From Spirodela intermedia (taxonomy: Eukaryota > Streptophyta > Magnoliopsida > Alismatales > Araceae): DNA of 64,000 nucleotides. The notes below the pieces were generated by a model. The model saw nothing but the letters and a program-made list of their open reading frames with translations. It searched no databases and had not been told where the DNA came from. Shown piece after piece: positions 1 through 13,450 of the stretch. The position numbers were made by a program, and so were the translations under genes. Location: positions 4,940,892 through 5,004,891 of the forward strand of contig LR746265.1 of NCBI GenBank assembly GCA_902729315.2, written 5' to 3'. Within the stretch, counting starts at the first letter, position 1, and every line of letters starts with the position of its first letter.

Positions 1-2
1 AT

Positions 3-3000
3 GAGGCTCTCCTTCACCGCCCCCCTGTCGAGGTTGGTGTACCTGGGGTGGCCGTTGCTTCAGCAGATACTGTCAAAGGAGATGGGTTGCTTGGACCACC
101 GCCAAATCGGTTTGAGAACAATTCAAGGGCAAGAGAGTTTGTGCACGAATGTGCCGTGACAAATGTTACATGTGACGTTGGTGATAAGAAGAGAGCTTCA
201 GATGGGTTGGAGAAAGGCAGAAGAGACTACAGCGAAGATGTTGGTAGGAGGGATGATATGGGAGATGGCGGGACGAGATGCAGCAAGAGAGCACGAACCA
301 ATGTTATAACAGAGAACAATGATGCGGTACTTCTCTATGGCCGTTACGAGCATCTCCGATATGCAAACTGTAGGAGGCAAGTGCGTGACTGGGATGAATG
401 TGACCATGGTCGAAGGAGAGAGATGGACCAAAGTAGGAAAAGAGAGATCGAAGATGGAGATTGGAGGGATAGGAGGGACAGGTGTAGAAAGCAAAGCAGA
501 GACAGGGATGGGAGGGACACCAGAGATCGGGATGTCAGGAATAGCAGGGAGAAGAATTTGAAGGAGAGAGATGGGAAGGGTTTTTGGGAAAGGGACCGAT
601 CTGGGAAACTGGTATTCCGTGTTGGTTCCTGGGAGAACAGAGAGGAGAAGAAAATCAAGCAGGAAGGCCTGGAGAGGGTTAAGAAGGATGATAAATTATT
701 GGAGGAGAGAGAGAAGCCAGCTGAAGAGCAAGCTCGGAAGTACCAGCTTGATGTTCTTGAGCAGGCCAAGAAGAAAAACACAATCGCCTTTCTTGAGACT
801 GGAGCTGGGAAAACTCTCATAGCTGTGCTTCTCATCAAGAGTATCAATCACAAAATGCAAAAAAATAAAATAAAAATGCTGGCTATATTTTTGGTACCAA
901 AGGTTCCCTTGGTGTATCAGGTAAACACATCTTCAGTAGTTCTCTTTTCAGAGCCTTCCTGTTGGTCTGTTTCTCTTATTTTTCTATTTTTGCAGCAAGC
1001 GGAAGTTATCAGGGATGGAACTGGCTATAATGTAGGACATTATTGTGGTGAGATGGGTCAAGATTTCTGGGATGCTCGGAGGTGGCAGCGTGAATTTGAA
1101 ACAAAACAGGTAAGGCTTTAAGTATTTTTTGGCATTGTTTTTGTTTTGAATTTGAATTCAATTACAACCTTGGCTGCAGTATCTGCGTTCGCTATTTTAT
1201 ATTCAATCACGATGATATTCAAATATCAATCCCGTCTTGTTGATTCTGGTAAGCCTTAAATTGTAGGCCATCCTCAAACGGGATAGGTTCCCTGAGGTCC
1301 ATTTTGATGGCAATCAGTCAGCGATTAGGATGTACTACGCATGGCTTTGGAATGCTAGCCATAATCTGCAGTTTATCTTGACATTGCATAGTCCTTACGT
1401 ATTACTTTTATGGAGGTACTGTGGCACTACGTTTGTTTCGTTGAACTGGAGTATAGAGGACACACCCTTCGGGAAAATGAATACAAAGAAGGGACTGAGG
1501 CCGGGATATTTTAGCACATAAGGTAGGCTGGTTTTCTGGGAAAGTGAATGGGTGCCGGGAATATATGAACCGTCAAATTGCTCCAATTAAAGCATCATGT
1601 GATTAAAAAGTAAGAATGATGTAACGAGAAAAGTAATCTTTGACGCATATTCATGATATTTGAATATCAAAATTGTAGTGAAATTTGGGTATGGTTATCA
1701 TCGTGATTGGCAAAAAAATTGCATGTTGAAGCAATGAAATTGTATTTGACATAAAACGTCTGTAGTAGATATATCTCATCTTAAAATGATATGACCGTAC
1801 AGAGGAGTACATTCCAGAGGAGCAATGCATTATGGCATTAAATACAGCGTCAACATTTTTTGGGAGTTATGCCTTGGAAACCAAATGATTTTGTATCATG
1901 CAACCTCGTATTAATTTGCATCTACATTCCCTATAAGCTGTATGAAATTTACAGTTGAGACTTTATCGAAAATCCTATTATTCATTTCGTTATAAGTTGA
2001 ATTATTTTATGTCATTTCCCATGTATTAACCTGTCTTTGATTTCTTCCAAGAAATGACACATCTAATCCTGAATAACCCCTCTAAGGGAGTCCAGGGTAA
2101 ACATCTATAAAGAGGTTGATTAATCAAACAGGACGGTGGAAACTCTTTATTGGAAACAGATTATTTCTAATAACTTATTGAATCTAGAAGCCATTCTCTA
2201 AATGAAAAGAGTTCATATGGTGATGCTGCTTTGTTGCACAAACATTTTAGTTTTGTGCGTAGTGCTTTTCGAGATTGAAGGGGGACACTTTTTTTATTCC
2301 GTTTTTCTTTCTGATTTTGAAAGAATATTTTAAGGGGGGAAGTTAACATTTTATCCTTGTTGGTCTCAAATTTGTCACATCAAAGTTGGTCTTTCACAAA
2401 CATGAACTACGGAAACTTCTCCTTATGAGAGAAGAAGTTTATATTTATGACGTTTTTGAGCTCAAAAGTACGCTTTTTAAGTATTCTGTAGGGGACAACT
2501 TAATTGACATTTGAACTGACGGCTACTACAACTCATATATGATCTCATCCTGTCGTAATTAGCACAATTCTTGAATTTGGTTTTATTAGGTTAAAAAAAA
2601 TGCCTTGTTGTAATTATCAGTGTCCAAGGCATTGTGACTACATTGATTTGTTATTCATACCTTCAGGGTTGAAGTGGGTAGCTTCCCGTGTTCCAAATGG
2701 GGAAAGGCAGAATGGGAGTCAAGAATGACACAGATTTATCCTAAAATGTCACGTCCTTATGCAGAACCTGGTGGAAAGGACATTTCTGTCGTGGAGTGTA
2801 AATCGCTAAACATTTTCAGCTCCTAATAGGAAAATAATTAAATGTTTAACAGAGGTTCATGCACTGCTCAACACCTTAAATGGACTATTGTTATTTGTTT
2901 GTAAGTAGCTTCTTTTGCCTCATCTCCCTGTTCTGTTTTGATTTTTGGTACGTTGAAGGGATGGATTTTATACCTGATGCCTTTGTCTTAATGTTATGCA

Positions 3001-6000
3001 GATGCTAATTGACATCCTGATCTTCATCTGCAGGTGCTTGTTATGACTGCTCAAATTTTGTTGAATATCCTGAGACACAGCATAATAAAAATGGAAGCAA
3101 TCCATCTTCTTATTTTGGATGAGTGTCATCACGCTGTAAAGAAACATCCATATTCACTTGTGATGTCTGAATTCTATCACACAACTCCAAAGGATAAACG
3201 ACCTGCTGTCTTTGGCATGACAGCTTCTCCTGTTAACTTGAAAGGTGAACGTCATGACATAATGTAGTGGAGATAGTTCCTGTTTATTCATTTTATGTTC
3301 AGTATTTTCTGTTTATGCAATTTACATGTATGTCAATCGGTCATTTTCATCCCGTTTTTCAATGCCCAATTTATCATAAATTGTTTAATCGTTTTGAACA
3401 ATTAATTTCATTCTATCATGTTGCTAATAATTTGTCTGATGCATGACAGTTTAAATTGAATCGTTTTAGCACCCTTGGTACTCTCTGATGCCCTTCGGGT
3501 TAGCCTTTAGTTTTGCTTGTCGTATTATAATTGAAAATTGTCTTTCATGGATTTATTTGTCTGATGGATTAAAGTTGCATCCAGGATTTTTTCTCCCCCA
3601 TGTACCAATGCATAAACTTTGTGCCTAGTGGTTATCAAAAGAGCTGTCAGTGTACCTTTGAGACAACAGCTATGATAAAAAACTATGGGATAATTTTCTT
3701 TGCTCGAAAGGTAAATAGACCTAAATGAAAAAGTATACCTATGTTATTGGGTTGAGTAAAGTAAATGTATAGCAATAATTTGATTTTTTTTGTTTAACTG
3801 AATTTTATCAAGCTTCCATTGATTGTAAGATACATTTTTTTGTTTAATTTGATTTTTCGCTTGCTGTTTTTTCTAATAGAATGATAAGATTCTCCCTTTT
3901 GACGAAGTGTTTATATATTTTGTTTTGACGCATCCCATGGTGTTCGTTTTGGTATATTTCATATTGTTTTGTTAAACATTTATACTTTTTACATCCACGA
4001 TTTTCTTGAACATCAGAGTGTGCTCTTATTGTACTTCTTCTGCAGGGGTTTCTAGTCAAGAAGATTGTGCCATCAAGATCCGAAATCTTGAGAGCAAACT
4101 AGATTCTGTTGTATGTACGATAAAAGACCGGAAGGAGCTTGAAAGGCATGTTCCGATGCCCTTGGAAGTTATTGTGCATTATGATAAAGCTGGTAGTCTA
4201 TGTTTTCTTCATGATCAAATTAAACGATTAGAAGCTGAAGTTGATGAAGCTGCACATTCGAGTTCCCGAAGAAGCAAATGGCAGTTCATGGGTGCTAGAG
4301 ATGCTGGATCTAAAGAGGAATTACGCTTTATTTATGGTGTCTCTGAGAGAACGGAGAGTGATGGAGCTGCTAATCTTATTCAGAAACTGAGAGCCATCAA
4401 TTATGCTTTGGGTGAACTAGGGCAGTGGTGTGCTTTTAAGGTATACGATGAGAAACTGACATCTCTTACATTTTTCGACAATTATTCAGAGAATAAATCA
4501 TCAATTTTTTTTTGCAGGTTGCTCTGTCATTTTTGACGGCTTTGCAGAATGATGAGAAGTCAAATTATCATCTTGATATTAAATTTCAAGAATCATACCT
4601 GAGAAAAGTGGTAGAGTTATTGCAATGTCAATTATCTGAAGGAGCTGCCCTTGATAAAGACGTTAAAGGTGAAGTCAAGGTGAGTGCTGATGCCCAAGTG
4701 GAGGAAGTTGAAGAGGGGGAGCTGCCAGATAGTCATGGTGAGTATTGCTTGCTGACTTTCTAACGGATTCGCTTTTTTTTTTTGGAAGTATTTAGGAATG
4801 TTTGTTATTTTGTCTTCCTTGACACTGTTGCATTCAACTCTCATTTTTTATGATTGGCGAGGACATGTGGTGGATGAATTGGGTTATTTATGAATCGAAC
4901 AATTTGAAGCGTTATAAAATTATTTACGATCACTTTTTTTGACATTTAAAATTATTGGAATGTAATGTTGATCCGTTTCATCCGTTTTCAAGACGTGGCA
5001 GGCTGTGGCAATTGTAGAGAATTGTTTTTTTCTATGCAGACGTCTTTATTTGCCTACTCATGAGATGAATTTGGAACTGTCATTTGATGGAAAATTAATC
5101 TGTGAATTACATGGAGATGGTGCAAGATTACCATGACGGCTTGCTGTGATGCAATATGTGCAGAGATAAGTAGTACAATAACTATGAGATACATAGTTAT
5201 TGTTTTTTGGTACTTGCTGTTTTCAATTCATGAAACGTCTGCTTGAGATAGCACAAAAATGATTATTTTTGGTTATTTTTATGATTGATACAATTGAAAA
5301 TACTGCAAATATGATATTCTTGCATTCAATTCGCGTTATTCCATGCTTTGTGAACGCAGATTCTCTTCCCATAATTAAAAAAATAATGCCATAGGTTTTA
5401 CTTTTTAAATCATTTATGTTCCTGGGATCATACGATTTTTAAAAATGGAAACCACCATCTAATACTAGATTTTGGCTAATGCGGTAGGCTGATGTTATTC
5501 TGGCTATACTCAAAATTACTCTCCGGGCTGGTAAATTATTTTTAGAAACATGGAGGAGAGACTATTTCATGTGATCTCTGTGAACAGTAGACTGTTTTCA
5601 ATATACAGTGAAACCAATGATTGGGTGTTGTATGAGGTCGGAATCGGGGATTCTGCCCCAGTCGTCTGCTTGGAGTGCACTCACCCATAACTTTTTTCAA
5701 TGTTAGAATCAGAAATAGTGTGCATTGATACTTAGCCCCATCACTCCTTTTGATATGAAAATATTTTTTTCTGAGGTACTTGGAAAATTTGAAACTTCCA
5801 CCATATGGGATAAGTTTGTGGGCTTGCAGTGCGTTGGTCTGGCTTGTATAAAATGGCAGAAGTTGCAACTCAATGAGTGCTTGTTGGGGTGGCCTTTGAT
5901 GTCTTCCATCCATTGTTTTGCCGATAATGTCGAAGATTTGTTTTTACTGTACAACACAAACATTTTTCTTTACTCTGTTGTGTGCAGGACAACAGAGGAG

Positions 6001-9000
6001 TTATCCATGTACCGTAGATTCTTTCATATGTTTGTTTCAATATTAAATATGCTGATAGCTCTTGGCTGTGCATTGCATGTGACGCGGTACATGATTACCT
6101 TCTATAAATTGTTTGAAGGATCCTTCTTGACGCTATTCGTCAACAAACACAATTGTAACATTCTGTCTACAAGCTGTTGTTTTGCCCATGTTTTTGTTAG
6201 ATTGAGTTATATTGTCAAGTTATAGGATAATTTTCTATTATTTATACTGTGTACTATACTGTATACACAACTTTTCTGCAAACCGTATGTTTTTTCTTGT
6301 CGCTGAGATTTTTGGATTGGCTGTTAGTTCTATCTGGTGGCGAGCATGTGGATGTGATAATAGGGGCAGCTGTGGCAGATGGAAAGGTCACCCCAAAGGT
6401 GCAGTCTCTAATTAAAATACTTCTAAAATACCAACACACAGAAGATTTTCGTGCAATTATCTTTGTAGAACGAGTTGTTGCAGCATTGGTTCTTCCAAAG
6501 GTTTGGCTCAGCTTTTTGTTTTTCTGTCCTCGTTTGCTTGATTGAATTGAACTGCTCAAATAAAATCATTTTTATTCTTTTCTGTGTTTCAGCTCTTGTC
6601 AGAGCTACCGTCCCTGAATTTCATCAAGTGTGCGAGTTTGATTGGACACAACAATAATCAAGAAATGCGTACATGTCAAATGCAGGATACAATTGCTAAA
6701 TTTCGTGATGGTCGGGTACGGATAGAGATTCTTAATTCTAACAACTTCATATCGCTTTGTTAATCTTAAAGATCTGTAAAGATTCTTTCTAACAATAGTT
6801 ATGCTGTGTTTTTGTATCTGACATTTAGGTTACCGTATTAGTTGCCACTAGTGTTGCAGAAGAAGGACTTGACATCCGGCAGTGCAATGTTGTTATTCGG
6901 TTTGACCTTGCAAAAACTGTCTTGGCTTACATTCAATCAAGAGGTCGTGCAAGGAAACCAGGATCTGATTACATTCTGATGCTTGAAAGGTATTGAAATG
7001 ATTTTCGTACTAGAATGTTGTTTAGTTCAGACAGATTTTTTTGGTTAGTATTATTAACCCAGCAAGCTTATACCAGGGGAAACCTGTCACATGAAACATT
7101 TTTGAGGAATGCAAGGAATAGCGAGGAGACATTGAGAAGAGAGGCTATAGAGAGGACTGATCTCAGTCATCTTAAGGGTTCATCAAAACTGACTTCAGTT
7201 GATATGTTACCCGGGTCAATATACAGGGTGGAGTCAACTGGTGCAATTGTTAGTCTTAATTCTGCTGTTGGACTTGTCCACTTGTACTGCTCCCAGTTAC
7301 CCAGTGACAGGTAGTAGTTAACACCTTTTTCTTGAATAGTTGTCCACTTGTATTGCTCCCAGTTACCCAGTGACATTGCTGAAGAATGTCAGATGCATGG
7401 ATTGGTCCTTATGCATAAGGTGTTTAATACATTTTTATCTTGCTTTTATGAGGTTTGAGTAATCGTCGCCTATTCTTTTCATTGATGTTCAGATATTCAA
7501 TACTCCGTCCTGAGTTTATCATGGAACGACATGAGTCACCAGGTGGTTCAACTGAATACTCATGCAAACTTCAGCTTCCTTGCAATGCACCATTTGAAAA
7601 ACTTGAGGGCCCTATATGCAGTTCAATCCGCCTTGCACAACAGGTCTGCTAACCCGCGTAAAGCTTGCAAATTTTTTATTTTGTGTTGTCATACTTTGCA
7701 AATTTGATTGCCTTTTCATTTAAAATTATCCATGTTACCTTGTGAAGGCTGTTTGCTTGGCTGCATGTAAGAAGCTCCATGAGATGGGGGCATTCACCGA
7801 CATGCTTTTGCCAGACAAAGGTAGTGGTGATGACGATGAGAAAATTGAACAGAATGACGAAGGTGATCCTCTCCCTGGGACTGCACGTCATCGAGAGTTC
7901 TATCCTGAAGGTGTAGCGGAAATTCTTTTTGTGAGTTCCACCTTACACGGTTTGCCTTTTGGTCTTGTTTCCGGATATTTTCAGATTTGTTCATTCATGA
8001 AGAGCCTTGTTATTGTGACTTATGGCTACTTTTTTCTGAACCATCTTTCAAAACTAAAATCTACTTTTCATAGTTACGCCGCTGTTGTCTCTTTGATCTC
8101 ATGTTTTGACTCATTCGGATTTGATGGTCTGTGATGAAAATTAGTTATCATTTGGTGTATTCATGTTCAAAGAAATCTGATTACCCTTGTATGGATGCAA
8201 AAGGGATATGTGCCCTTTTTATGCAATATATCTGTTGACTCCGTATATGGCCATCAGTGGTCTTCTCCTGGTGTACACGATAATGGGACAATGTTTACAC
8301 TATTTATGTGTTTCTTGACATTGGTCTGCTTCTAAGTTATTTTTGACATTAGAATCAAATATCTTCTGCAGGACCCTAAAAGGGAATTCATAATACATTT
8401 TCTTGGTATTTATTCTTCTTTAGTCTTGCTAGTATTTAGCAGTTTGTTATGGACGCATGTTTCGTCAACATTCAGAGTTGAAATTTTGGGTCGTGGGCCA
8501 TCCCAGCCTTTCCTTGTCCCAGAGAATGGAAGGAGAACGCGAAGGGTGAAAGACCGGGAAAGAGAATAAAATTAAAAATTAATAGAAATACAAGAGAAAA
8601 TATTAAAATAGGAGAGAGGAGGCAGGATGAATTATCCTTGTAATGAGTGGCGAACTGTCAGCTAATCCAGCTGATGATATGTTTTTCTCATCCGTGTTGA
8701 TGCTATTTCGTTACTACATTTGCATCTTTTTAGTGTTGTTACGTGCACCCTAATTCCTCTTTTATAGTTGCACAGTGGTTTGAACATTTTGTACTTAATT
8801 TATTTGAAGTTTTATATAGTGTATATATTCTTAATTAGGAAAATCTTAATGTCATTTTAAGTAGTTAAAACGACAAGTTTCTAGGAACTCCTTAACGTGA
8901 CATATGTGCTGCTTAGAGGGGTAAGTCGTTTCATTTCAGATGTGAGCATTTCATTCTACTTGTGTAATTGATCGACCTAATCAGTTTCCGTTAGTGAAAG

Positions 9001-12000
9001 TTCTGATGACTCTTTTTTCTCTTGAGGCTAACCAGTCCAAGTTTATTTTGTACCTATTTTCTTTTTTTTAATCTCAATCAAGATCTTAAGTATCCAGAAC
9101 AGTTTCGGTCCTTTTTGTCTGTCCCTTTTGCTAATCCTGGGTGGTAGTTGAAATAGGATATGCCTAAACTTTATGTACTCCTCCACATTTAAATGTCTTT
9201 GTTGCCCTTGAACTTTTAGGGTCCGTCTAAAATTTCTATTACTTAATCCACTTATGGATGCTGAACTGGATATTCTGGAATCGAATAAACTCGAGTACTT
9301 GGTTAGAATGTTCCTACATCAGCACCAAGAGTGAGTGTGTAATATGGGTTTCTCGACATCCCTGTAAAGTCAGGTGGAGCCTTATGGTCTTTCTGCTTTT
9401 GCCTCGTGTGATCAGCTTATGTTGGTGTTTTATCTTTTTTTTCATGCTGCAGAACATCTATTTTACGGCACTTCTCATCCGTTGAGTTTTGCTGCTGCTC
9501 TACGATCCTCTTCTAGTCTTGTTTTGTTAGGACTGATTTGGTTTGGCGTGCTCTGTTTCGACCAGAGACATGTCTTTAACCCTTTCGATTGAATTGTAAT
9601 TTTTCAGGGAGAATGGATTTTATCTCGGGCAGATGGTTACACAAGTTCGCAACCTCTTCAATTATATGTGTACAGTGTGAAATGTGTAAACATTGGCACT
9701 TCCAAAGATCCGTTCCTCACAGATGTTTCAGAGTTCTCTGTTCTTTTTGGCAACAAGCTCAGTGAGGAGGTATCCTTAACCTTACTTACGTATTTTTTAT
9801 GAAAATGATTTACTTTGTCTAATGGTGAATGATTTGCAGGTGCTATCTATGTCAGTAGAACTCTTTGTTGCTAAGACGATGATTACAAAGTCATCTCTTG
9901 TCTTCAAGGGCGCCATAAATATTACCAGAACACAGGTTAGTTGGTTGTTTACAAGGATAAGCATAACTTTGTGAAGATCATATTTGGTTGCACATTTTCT
10001 TATTCTCTTGTCATGTTTCTTTACTGTAGCTAGTTTCTTTGAAGAGCTTTCACGTTCGACTTATGAGCATTGTCCTTGATGTGGACGTTGATCCCTCCAC
10101 TACTCCATGGGATCCAGCCAAAGCATACTTGTTTGTCCCCACAATAAATCAGAAGCACTTAGATCCTTTACTAGAAATTGATTGGGATACAGTTGAACAG
10201 ATTGTTGGCAGTGATGCATGGAGTAACCCTCTTCAGAGGGCACGCCCAGATGTGTACCTTGGTACCAATGAGAGGACGCTCGGGGGTGATAGAAGGGAGT
10301 ATGGATTTGGTAAGTTACGGCATGGAATGTCTTTCGGACTCAAAGCTCATCCGACGTATGGTATCAGGGGAGCGGTTGCACAGTTTGATGTTGTGAAAGC
10401 TTCTGGCTTAGTTCCCAGTTGGGATGTTGGAGCAAATGGCAATGGAGATATGATCCGAGGGAAATTATCGATGGCTGACTCTTATATCCATGCTGAAGAC
10501 CTTGTTGGTAGAATTGTAACTGCTGCACACTCTGGAAAAAGATTTTATGTGGACTCTATAAGATATGACATGAATGCAGAGAATTCATTTCCAAAGAAAG
10601 AGGGTTACCTGGGACCCTTGGAGTATGGCTCCTATGCTGACTACTACAGGAAAAAGTATGATTCTACTCTCCAAGATGTTGATCTTTAATATATTGTTTT
10701 GCTGCCTTTTGTATAACATTATAACTCAGGAAGTAAACACGTGAATCCTCCGTTACAAAATTCTGATATTCTTCATATTTTGCAATTCGGTAACATTGCT
10801 CCCACCCATAGAGTTGTACCGAGTCGGCAAATCCTCCACAAAATTCAGATATTCTTCATATTTTTTAATTTCCGTTTCTGTGGCTAGTTATATGACCATG
10901 CTGTGCGTCAGGAATGGATAGCCACAATGTACCTTAACTGTTGAGCTAGAAGAAGCTTGAAGGTCTTTCCTGCGACGAAGAAGTAGCTTTCCACTGTTCA
11001 ATGCGGAAAAGATTATACAAGTTTTCACATTGACAGTGGTAGCTATTTCTTCGAAGTAGTAGGAAAGGTCTTCATGCTTCATGCCCAACAGTAAGGTGCA
11101 TTTTGGTCTGCCCATTTCTGCTTTGTTTTCATTCCAGGTACGGTGTAGAGCTGATGCATAAAAAACAGCCTCTGTTGCGTGGAAGAGGCGTTTCATATTG
11201 CAAAAATCTGCTTTCTCCGAGATTTGGGCATTCGGAAGGTAGCTATGATGTCACTTCTTTGGTTTATATACCTCCTATCTTTAATCTAGACACTTTTTTT
11301 TTTAACCCTTGTTTGGGTTGTTGTGCAGAAAAGGACAATGAATCCAAGGAGGATCTGGACAAGACATACTATGTATTTCTTCCTCCTGAGCTTTGCCTTG
11401 TCCATCCTCTTCCTGGACCCCTTGTTCGAGGTGCACAGCGATTGCCTTCAATAATGAGGAGAGTCGAGAGTATGCTTCTGGCGGTTCAACTTAAGGACTT
11501 GATTGGTTATCCTGTGCCTGTTGCAAAGGTTTCCTTCCTTCAATAACCCTGCATAAACTTGCCATTATTTTCTGATGCTTACGGATTTTGTGAAATATTA
11601 ATTTCAGATATTGGAAGCCTTAACCGCTGCATCATGTCAAGAAACTTTCTGCTATGAAAGAGCAGAGCTCTTGGGGGATGCTTATCTGAAGTGGGTTGTC
11701 AGCAGGTATCTTTTTCTCAGATATCCGCAGAAACATGAAGGCCAGCTCACAAGAATGAGACAACAGATGGTTAGTAATATGGTGTTATATCAGTATGCTC
11801 TTAATAACGGACTTCAGTCGTATATTCAGGCAGATCGTTTTGCTCCATCAAGATGGGCGGCTCCTGGGGTGCCCCCTGTCTTTGATGAAGATACAAAGGA
11901 ATTAGAACCCCCTCTATCTGGCCAGGGAACCTCTAACACTGAGGTCGACGTCCAGACGGGGGGGTTATATGATGATGATTTTGATGAAAGGGAAGACGGT

Positions 12001-13450
12001 GAGCTTGAGGGTGATTCTGGTTGTTACAGGGTTCTCTCCAGCAAGACGCTGGCTGATGTTGTTGAAGCATTAATCGGTGTCTACTACGTCGAAGGTGGGG
12101 AAAACGCTGCGAACCATCTCATGCAGTGGATCGGCATTCAGGTAGATTTTGGCATGCAAATCATGGATTCTATGAACAAGCCCTACAATATATCAGAGAG
12201 CGTAATGAGGAGCATTGACTTTGATGGATTGGAAGGTATTTTAAATTTGAGGTTCAATAACAAGGGCTTGTTAATGGAGGCCATCACTCATGCTTCCAGA
12301 CCATCATCTGGAGTCCCATGTTACCAAAGGCTGGAATTTGTTGGCGATGCAGTTCTTGACCACCTGATCACCAGTCATCTGTTCTTCACTTATACTGATC
12401 TGCCCCCAGGTCGCCTTACTGACTTGAGAGCCGCGGCTGTGAACAATGAGAATTTCGCTCGGGTGGCTGTGAAGCATAACCTGCATGTGCACCTTCGACA
12501 TGGCTCGACTGCCCTTGAAGCCCAGGTGCTGACTCCTAGGCCAATAACTTCTACGCTGAGAAACCTTCAAGCTTCCCCTCTAGTTAACTTGCTTGTGCAT
12601 TTACCCTCGTGCATCACAGATCCGGGAATTCGTTAAGGACGTTCAAGATGAGCTTTCGAAACCGGGTCTGAATTCTTTCGGCCTGGGAGATTGCAAGGCT
12701 CCCAAGGTCCTGGGTGACATCGTAGAGTCCATCGCCGGTGCCATCTTCCTTGACAATGGATGTGACCCGTCCTCTGTGTGGAAGGCAAGCTTCCGATCTG
12801 CTGCCAACCCCCTCTCTCTCCTCTCCTCTCCTTTCCTCTCCAATGCACATCCCTGCTCGTCTTCTTGATCCATTTGTTTAACAAGGTTTCTTTGTTTGCT
12901 GCAACCCGAGTTGCAGGCGTTTCAGCCCCTGCTGCATCCTATGGTGACCCCAGAGACCCTCCCAATGCACCCGGTGAGGGAGCTCCAAGAGCGGTGCCAG
13001 CAGCAGGCGGAGGGACTGGAGTACAAGGCCACCCGCGCGGGCAATGTGGCCACCGTCGAGGTCTTCGTGGACGGCGTACAGATCGGCGTGGCCCAAAACC
13101 CGCAGAAGAAGATGGCCCAGAAACTGGCGGCCCGGAACGCGCTGGTGGTATTGAAGGAGAAGGACAAGACGAGGCGGGAGGAGGCAGAGGATGGGAAGAG
13201 GTCGTCGGGGCAGGTATACACCAGGCAGACGCTGAACGACATCTGCCTGCGACGGCAGTGGCCGATGCCGCAGTACCGCTGCGTCAACGAGGGCGGCCCC
13301 GCGCACGCCAAGAGGTTCGTCTATTCGGTTCGCGTGAACACCTCCGACCTTGGATGGACCGACGAGTGCGTCGGAGAGCCCATGCCCAGTGTGAAGAAGG
13401 CCAAGGATTCCGCCGCCACCCTTCTTCTCGAGCTACTAAACAAACGCTGA
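3..13450 (+). CDS. DCL1: DICER-LIKE 1, nuclear microRNA-processing RNase III (5' partial, 19 exons visible)
   Basis: Cuts pri-/pre-miRNA hairpins in the nucleus. Exons: 3-920, 996-1109, 3034-3244, 4046-4440, 4518-4737, 6328-6500, 6593-6715, 6829-6989, 7077-7310, 7493-7643, 7748-7930, 9608-9769, 9840-9935, 10030-10655, 11138-11238, 11329-11528, 11608-12525, 12620-12784, 12917-13450. All phases join to 1,894 residues without a stop. Seen in order: Arg/Asp/Lys-rich N-terminus (likely nuclear localisation), Walker A ETGAGKT (265-271), DECH (373-376), helicase C with [10 protein letters not shown] and QSRGRARK (about 720-765), DUF283 (about 835-930), PAZ (about 1150-1290), RNase IIIa ERAELLGD (1373-1380), RNase IIIb LEFVGD (from 1598) with its second acidic pair GDIVE (D1695, E1698), and two dsRBDs (about 1735-1805 and 1818-1893). 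Arabidopsis DCL1 is about 1,909 residues, so only a short N-terminal part is missing. The frame is open to the window edge, so the true start lies upstream. Intron 18 is GC-AG. Confidence 0.97.
1110..3033 (+). other. DCL1 intron 2, with a MITE-like insert
   Basis: A 1.9-kb GT-AG intron between the helicase motif I region and the DECH exon. It is AT-rich. The only structure I see is a segment bounded by 14-bp inverted repeats (1204-1709), described separately. No conserved coding sequence was recognised. Confidence 0.85.
1204..1709. mobile_element. possible MITE in DCL1 intron 2
   Basis: CAATCACGATGATA at 1204-1217 is the perfect inverted complement of TATCATCGTGATTG at 1696-1709. A second inverted pair lies inside it: GATATTCAAATATC near 1214-1227 and GATATTTGAATATC near 1657-1670. 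About 506 bp with terminal inverted repeats and no coding capacity fits a non-autonomous DNA transposon. I could not find a clear target-site duplication, so the family is unassigned. Confidence 0.4.
3245..4045 (+). other. DCL1 intron 3, no internal feature seen
   Basis: An 801-bp, T-rich, phase-1 GT-AG intron. The acceptor TGCAG ends at 4045 and the codon split across it is Gly. Nothing else was recognised. Confidence 0.85.
4738..6327 (+). other. DCL1 intron 5
   Basis: A 1.6-kb phase-1 GT-AG intron. It contains one short perfect hairpin (11-bp arms at 5176-5186 and 5192-5202, loop of 5) and several open frames without recognisable similarity, which I take as chance. Confidence 0.8.
7340..7375 (+). 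repeat. duplicated tail of DCL1 exon 9 lying in intron 9
   Basis: The last 36 nt of exon 9 before its final G (7274-7309, coding for the Cys-Ser-Gln-Leu-Pro region of DUF283) recur at 7340-7375 inside the 182-bp intron, with one difference in 36. The copy is not followed by GT, so it has no usable donor of its own. The sequences upstream of the two copies do not match. Confidence 0.85.
7931..9607 (+). other. DCL1 intron 11
   Basis: A 1.7-kb phase-0 GT-AG intron between the exon ending in Glu-Ile-Leu-Phe and the one starting Gly-Glu-Trp. Its 3' part from about 8651 onward, with most of exon 12, is duplicated near the right end of the window (62608-63682). No other element was recognised. Confidence 0.85.
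10656..11137 (+). other. DCL1 intron 14, hairpin-bearing intron with early in-frame stop
   Basis: A 482-bp intron splitting a Lys codon between exon 14 (ends AA at 10655) and exon 15 (starts G TAC GGT). The exon 14 frame read into the intron meets TAA at 10687-10689, 34 nt in, so retention would end the protein inside the PAZ region and remove RNase IIIa, RNase IIIb and the dsRBDs. A direct repeat of about 40 bp (10745-10786 and 10830-10867) precedes a long foldback (10909-11120). Confidence 0.85.
10909..11120 (+). ncRNA. long foldback in DCL1 intron 14, candidate intronic MIRNA precursor
   Basis: The arms 10909-11003 and 11028-11120 pair almost throughout. The best blocks are AAGTAGCTTTCCACTG near 10981 against CAGTGGTAGCTATTT near 11034, GAAGGTCTTTCCT near 10959 against AGGAAAGGTCTTC near 11061, TGTACCTTAACTG near 10928 against CAGTAAGGTGCA near 11089, and GAATGG near 10912 against CCATTTC near 11112. 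A 5-bp extension (GAAAA/TTTTC) closes an 11-nt loop. Most differences between the arms are G-U wobbles or single mismatches and small bulges. The structure is on the sense strand of DCL1, so it would be transcribed with it. Arabidopsis miR838 is known from a DCL1 intron; I do not claim sequence homology. An alternative is a foldback transposon. Expression and dicing are not shown by sequence alone. Confidence 0.6.
12785..12916 (+). other. GC-AG intron 18 of DCL1
   Basis: The conserved reading Val-Trp-Lys then Ala-Phe-Gln-Pro-Leu-Leu requires a junction AAG|GCAAGC (12784/12785) to TTGCAG|GCG (12916/12917). The donor is GC, not GT, and otherwise matches the donor consensus well (AAG|GCAAG). The 132-bp intron is CT-rich. 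No GT donor nearby preserves the frame and the conserved residues. Confidence 0.85.

Follow-up and report, generated by a model that had tools for sequence, protein, structure and literature searches.

Feedback on DCL1 has so far been explained by miR162 acting in trans and miR838 acting in cis. In Arabidopsis DCL1, intron 14 carries miR838 and the miR162 site is placed where exons 12 and 13 meet (PMC4429486), and DCL1 is described as cutting the hairpin of its own pre-mRNA, which lowers productive mRNA (PMC4429486, PMC4833791, PMC12825306). Co-transcriptional processing of Arabidopsis miR838 is reported as absent or inefficient (PMC9023350). Intron 14 of Medicago truncatula DCL1 folds as well and introduces a premature stop when retained; three 21-nt RNAs match its stem-loop, none of them being the miR838 homologue, and cleaved fragments of the intron were not recovered by 5' RACE (PMC4833791). 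The 19 DCL1 introns of Salvia are reported to contain no such hairpin (PMC4429486), and a search in grape gave no match to miR838. The miRNA has been called seemingly specific to Arabidopsis (PMC4053937) and stated to be found in a single species (PMC4833791); it is also named in papers on Brassica and in one on wheat. Moss miR1047 is described as having an origin separate from that of miR838 (PMC4429486). We found no report of a monocot MIR838 homologue in DCL1 in the open-access literature searched.

Here we describe a foldback in intron 14 of a monocot DCL1 gene, located in a stretch of 64,000 nucleotides of Spirodela intermedia, hereafter the window. With MIR838 (RF03974), it shares the gene, the intron and one long unbranched stem. 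It differs in being longer (95 pairs), in coming from a monocot, in reaching 28.1 of the 190 bits of the Rfam gathering score and in not specially keeping the mature sequence. The Medicago hairpin, from a eudicot, has the same intron, a foldback and a stop on intron retention in common with it (PMC4833791), a likeness of position and fold. MIR1047, in Physcomitrium DCL1a, is likewise a hairpin in a DCL1 intron with a proposed feedback, but it lies in intron 7, has a different sequence and is described as of independent origin (PMC4429486).

The foldback and its host gene

The DCL1 model begins with an uninterrupted first exon whose first in-frame ATG lies 250 bases upstream of the window (Table 1). 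Among the best 120 of 490 matches, the protein (residues 300-1700) is closest to that of Anthurium amnicola (88%), then to that of oil palm (84%), and no duckweed DCL1 protein is named. A plant DCL1 was not found in prokaryote and viral contigs, and exon 14 is single copy in the genome. Exons 2-13 measure 114, 211, 395, 220, 173, 123, 161, 234, 151, 183, 162 and 96 nt, presumably the same lengths as in AT1G01040, with the reservation that the match of exon 7 (123) is not independent, because two acceptors scored equally and the 123-nt one was chosen. Exons 14, 15 and 16 deviate from the lengths that we assume for AT1G01040 by -3, +3 and +9. For introns 14 and 18, the splice boundaries were placed manually. 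Exon 15 matches chain 7eld_A, 'Endoribonuclease Dicer homolog 1', which we take to be the Arabidopsis protein, from residue 1263. The hairpin intron is the 14th counted from the first ATG, and it lies two introns downstream of the junction spanned by the residues equivalent to the miR162 site (LSEE|VLSM).

Other features of the gene were observed in passing. The 36 bases at the end of exon 9 (7274-7309) are repeated 66 bases downstream within intron 9 (7340-7375, 97% identity) and could provide a second splice donor. Upstream of the hairpin, intron 14 carries a 33-nt direct repeat (10755-10787 and 10838-10870, 91%). Intron 18 (12785-12916) has an apparent GC donor, AAG|GCAAGC. The last exon reads through to 13450, and the last intron of Arabidopsis DCL1, a further one that we assume to exist there, seems to be missing from the present model.

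Table 1 Positions of DCL1, its miR162 site and the intron 14 foldback in the window
Feature	Position	Strand	Basis
DCL1 gene, 18 introns in model	1..13450	+	protein similarity and splice signals
miR162 target site, first half, eroded, exon 12 end; encodes LSEE, not LDAE	9758..9769	+	DNA/protein comparison
Place of miR162 target site, second half, exon 13 start	9840..9849	+	protein equivalence
Exon 14, 626 nt	10030..10655	+	exon map
Intron 14, 482 nt, GT-AG, after codon position 2	10656..11137	+	boundaries by hand
In-frame stop TAA, ten codons into intron 14 if retained	10687..10689	+	ORF 10030-10689
Complete foldback, 95 pairs, in intron 14	10895..11139	+	folding; outermost pair 10895/11139
5' arm, well-paired part	about 10909..11009	+	folding
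5' arm part in register with MIR838 stem columns 2-80 of 81	10910..10987	+	duplex alignment
Terminal loop, 12 nt	11010..11021	+	folding
3' arm, well-paired part	about 11022..11122	+	folding
3' arm part in register with MIR838 stem columns 2-80 of 81	11042..11121	+	duplex alignment
Approximate equivalent of mature miR838	11067..11087	+	read by eye from register alignment
Exon 15, 101 nt	11138..11238	+	exon map

The initial annotation had described two arms of about 95 nt pairing nearly end to end at 10909..11120, and folding bears this out. From 10890-11140 of the forward strand, RNA folding gives a single unbranched hairpin of 95 pairs (44 A-U, 41 G-C and 10 G-U), the well-paired part of which extends over about 10908-11123. 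Its minimum free energy is -114.6 kcal/mol (z -11.3), below that of every one of 200 dinucleotide shuffles, which average -62.6 (sd 4.6). The antisense strand of the same stretch also folds (-96.7 kcal/mol, z -9.1), and the hairpin is sense to the DCL1 transcript by position only. The foldback had been proposed as resembling a miRNA precursor, in sense within a DCL1 intron, and the exon map confirms this placement and identifies the intron as intron 14. The base of the foldback extends to, and includes, the 3' splice site of the intron, with a pair at 11139. When aligned as DNA, the two arms are ~81% identical, with 88 identical positions, 20 substitutions and 18 gap positions. A search of the window for ungapped inverted repeats of at least 40 nt returned none, an outcome that indels in the arms presumably explain. 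When the arms are aligned strand-neutrally, changes of the G-U type (in sense) outnumber those of the A-C type 9 to 2 (binomial p 0.03), a weak signal, but one that maintenance of the sense hairpin would predict.

Intron 14 is the sole unusual fold among the 18 DCL1 introns, with a z of -10.2 and a next best value of -3.0 (60 shuffles each). In addition, we surveyed 264 kb of the genome, made up of the window and 20 further 10-kb stretches, by folding 5,208 segments of 300 nt from both strands. Besides intron 14, only two places, one in L037 and one in L032, have foldbacks equally long and stable (at least 77 pairs, at most -105 kcal/mol); without the limit on stability, two more places reach this length, one in L026 and another in L037. 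Comparable foldbacks therefore occur roughly once per 100 kb, so that the chance of meeting one in any particular 482-nt intron is about 0.5%. A chance foldback is ruled out by the shuffle z, this survey and the comparison of the 18 introns. One of the structures encountered, at about 190-400 of the random stretch L037, is itself very stable, with ~85 pairs, and no Rfam match is listed for L037.

Comparison with MIR838

With cmscan on 701 bases, MIR838 obtained the top bit score among 4,227 Rfam families (28.1 bits, 10927-11101, all 170 model positions), without reaching its gathering score of 190 bits; the E-value of mir-488 was slightly lower for the same hairpin stretch. The Rfam alignment starts at 10927 and the register alignment described below at 10910, a shift of 17 bases, so that the Rfam rank does not confirm the register and is at most loose support. 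Unrelated long hairpins of this genome score at least 30 bits with other Rfam families. At 21 comparison loci with long hairpins or MIR156-like sites, the listed matches never included MIR838: 7 of these loci came from the 20 random stretches and were picked for their long hairpins (E up to 10), and the other 14 were loci of 3 kb (E up to 1). These scans covered more sequence, which makes the filters stricter, so weak matches may have dropped out. A genome-wide search with the MIR838 model gave no match, an uninformative outcome, as it scored 35 of 5,261 candidates and passed over the known hairpin itself. Two other loci gave weak matches to different families: a hairpin at L024:6809-6981 has a sub-threshold MIR2118 match (47.9 bits, cut-off 85), and a second hairpin at L012:827-1039, ~460 bases before a MIR156 gene, shows weak MIR2118 and MIR408 matches.

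The direct alignments were all made against one Rfam consensus of MIR838. On sequence only, the alignment of the hairpin was extreme under four of five scoring schemes, with at most 1 of 111 natural hairpins, 2 of 1,500 random stretches and 5 of 2,000 block shuffles scoring as well; under the fifth scheme it was not significant (18/111, 177/1,500 and 220/2,000 as good). The reverse complement scores about equally, as expected for a hairpin, so this similarity is uninformative on strand. A global alignment of the hairpin core to MIR838 was not significant (p 0.19). Because the sequence-only alignments lose the pairing register (6 of 41, 0 of 16 and 0 of 49 pairs kept), we adopted a duplex alignment, in which both arms are held in register and compared pair by pair.

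The duplex alignment scores 87 and covers MIR838 stem columns 2-80 of 81. This score was reached by none of 600 column shuffles, by 1 of 3,000 block shuffles (p 0.004 from a Gumbel fit to these 3,000) and by none of 146 natural hairpins, whose maximum was 58 but which are mostly shorter (mean of 73 columns versus 125), a difference that favours the MIR838 finding. Reversing the order of the columns lowered the score to 59 and swapping the arms to 56. Over seven duplex scoring schemes, the observed value was matched 1, 2, 1, 7, 21, 0 and 1,045 times in 2,000 block shuffles; thus, six schemes beat about 99% or more of the shuffles and the strictest one (1,045) shows nothing. Among gap-free registers, the top score is 82 and the second 33. 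In register, identity over the MIR838 stem is 62.5% (90/144), and among the 53 pairs that are canonical in both hairpins, 12 differ on both sides, counts that derive from an optimised alignment. The positions of mature miR838 are not specially conserved (11/18, against 79/126 for the rest of the alignment), which suggests that the hairpin, and not a trans-acting miRNA, is what persists. Overall, the foldback is real and is probably a homologous, old relative of the MIR838 hairpin, with a function that can be proposed by analogy. The suggestion that it is a hairpin of the miR838 kind agrees with its position in the same intron and with the register of its stem.

Plant miRNA duplexes have at most five mismatches and small bulges. 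With these limits, 129 positions of a 21-nt window, counted on both arms, qualify as candidate miRNA/miRNA* duplexes, so no mature miRNA can be named from the sequence. Self-targeting had been suggested for the hairpin. As an effect of a miRNA on DCL1 mRNA this found no support: within the coding exons no site scores better than 4.0 mismatches and 51 sites score up to 5.5, and a miRNA directed against the gene's own exons was rejected.

Erosion of the miR162 site

Like the switch proposed below, miR162 feedback puts DCL1 under the negative control of its own product; it does so in trans, at the exon 12/13 junction, whereas here the site is eroded and a MIR162 gene was not detected. The residues LDAE are found in 116 of the 120 DCL1 homologues listed (the best 120 of 490, including many near-duplicates). 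Of the remaining four, Anthurium reads LNEE, two carry LDIE or LDTE, and Amborella gave no clear reading. Compared as DNA with what we take to be the Arabidopsis site, the site in the window is changed at 8 of 22 positions. A search of the window for an uninterrupted miR162 site is uninformative, because the site spans an intron. In the genome, the mature miR162 pattern with up to three mismatches occurs 7 times and its control 5 times, which is chance level, and none of these 7 places gave a match to the miR162 family. The best family candidate for a MIR162 gene reached 24.8 bits against a cut-off of 75, with 47 of 13,990 candidates scored. The same two methods, mature pattern and family search, do detect MIR156 in this genome. 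From these comparisons, miR162 control of DCL1 has probably been lost in this plant, and the decay of the site may predate the split from Anthurium, where it is seen at the protein level.

A candidate cis-acting switch and its alternatives

We favour, with a probability of about 0.6, the reading in which the hairpin is a divergent homologue of MIR838 that has been in DCL1 intron 14 since before the monocot-eudicot split and acts in cis on the DCL1 pre-mRNA. By analogy with Arabidopsis, DCL1 would itself dice the hairpin in the pre-mRNA, and at high levels of the enzyme this cutting would compete with splicing. In a cut transcript, exon 14 could not be joined to exon 15, and retention of intron 14 would lead to a stop after ten codons. 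Productive DCL1 mRNA would then fall as DCL1 rises. Since the 3' splice site is part of the stem base, folding and splicing may also compete directly.

Common descent has to be weighed against a separate origin, in which intron 14 gained its own inverted duplication in this lineage and the likeness to MIR838 is accidental; intron 14 perhaps tolerates hairpins, or selection favours one there. Such an origin would suit the published view that miR838 is seemingly Arabidopsis-specific (PMC4053937) and miR1047 separate (PMC4429486), the description of Salvia as devoid of such a hairpin (PMC4429486), and also the Rfam score, which is far under the cut-off and in another register. We nevertheless consider it unlikely, given a register alignment that runs over nearly the whole MIR838 stem with one outstanding gap-free register, the location in one and the same intron, for which a simple count of the 18 gives odds of about 1 in 18, and the fact that no source sequence for the arms was found in the genome within the limits of the search. 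A foldback transposon (MITE) or a recent inversion of a gene fragment, which the length of the arms and the occurrence of comparable hairpins about once per 100 kb might suggest, is very improbable. In the 136.5-Mb genome, the whole hairpin and each arm have one match each at the sensitivity tested, a limit to be kept in mind as the search with the 5' arm missed the 3' arm (~81% identical) and diverged copies could escape in the same way. With up to three mismatches allowed, a 20-nt core hits the two arms and a further 18 places; its reversed control hits 13. Within this sensitivity, a dispersed repeat is ruled out by the single matches and a core count near that of the control, and the dispersed copies that would mark a transposon were searched for and not found. 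The initial annotation had taken the long arms and high pairing to suggest a young locus or a foldback transposon, and had proposed that an independent or shared instance would support repeated evolution; the single genome match at this sensitivity together with the stem in register with MIR838 points the other way, to a hairpin that looks shared and old and not to a further instance of repeated evolution.

An old hairpin could also have been kept for splicing, as a structural spacer that presents the 3' splice site and not as a dicing substrate. The position of the stem base at this site (11139) is in keeping with this role, as are the cut fragments that were not found in Medicago (PMC4833791) and a co-transcriptional processing of Arabidopsis miR838 that is reported as at best inefficient (PMC9023350). 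It appears doubtful, to much the same degree as a separate origin, since the Arabidopsis hairpin of this intron is described as the miR838 precursor (PMC4429486) and 21-nt RNAs match the Medicago stem (PMC4833791), and since 129 positions of the 21-nt window in the present hairpin stay within the duplex limits.

A wider proposal can be made, which we advance tentatively and at somewhat less than even odds: the intron 14 hairpin would be an ancestral angiosperm switch, at least as old as the monocot-eudicot split, in which a cleavable stem is what is selected, and it is maybe the sole RNA-level brake on DCL1 left in aroids. Under this proposal, surveys of mature miRNAs would call miR838 young because the stem, and not the miRNA sequence, is kept, and the hairpin may be the only such brake in aroids since the miR162 site of DCL1 seems to be lost there.

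If a hairpin in a monocot is related to MIR838, the switch in cis would be the older of the two devices and the one of more general occurrence; it would also follow that an intronic hairpin can persist while its miRNA drifts. A plant without miR162 control of DCL1 would, in addition, let the cis switch be tested alone. In the same intron as Arabidopsis miR838 and similar to it along both arms, the foldback points to a possibly much greater age for a kind of self-control so far described in few plants.
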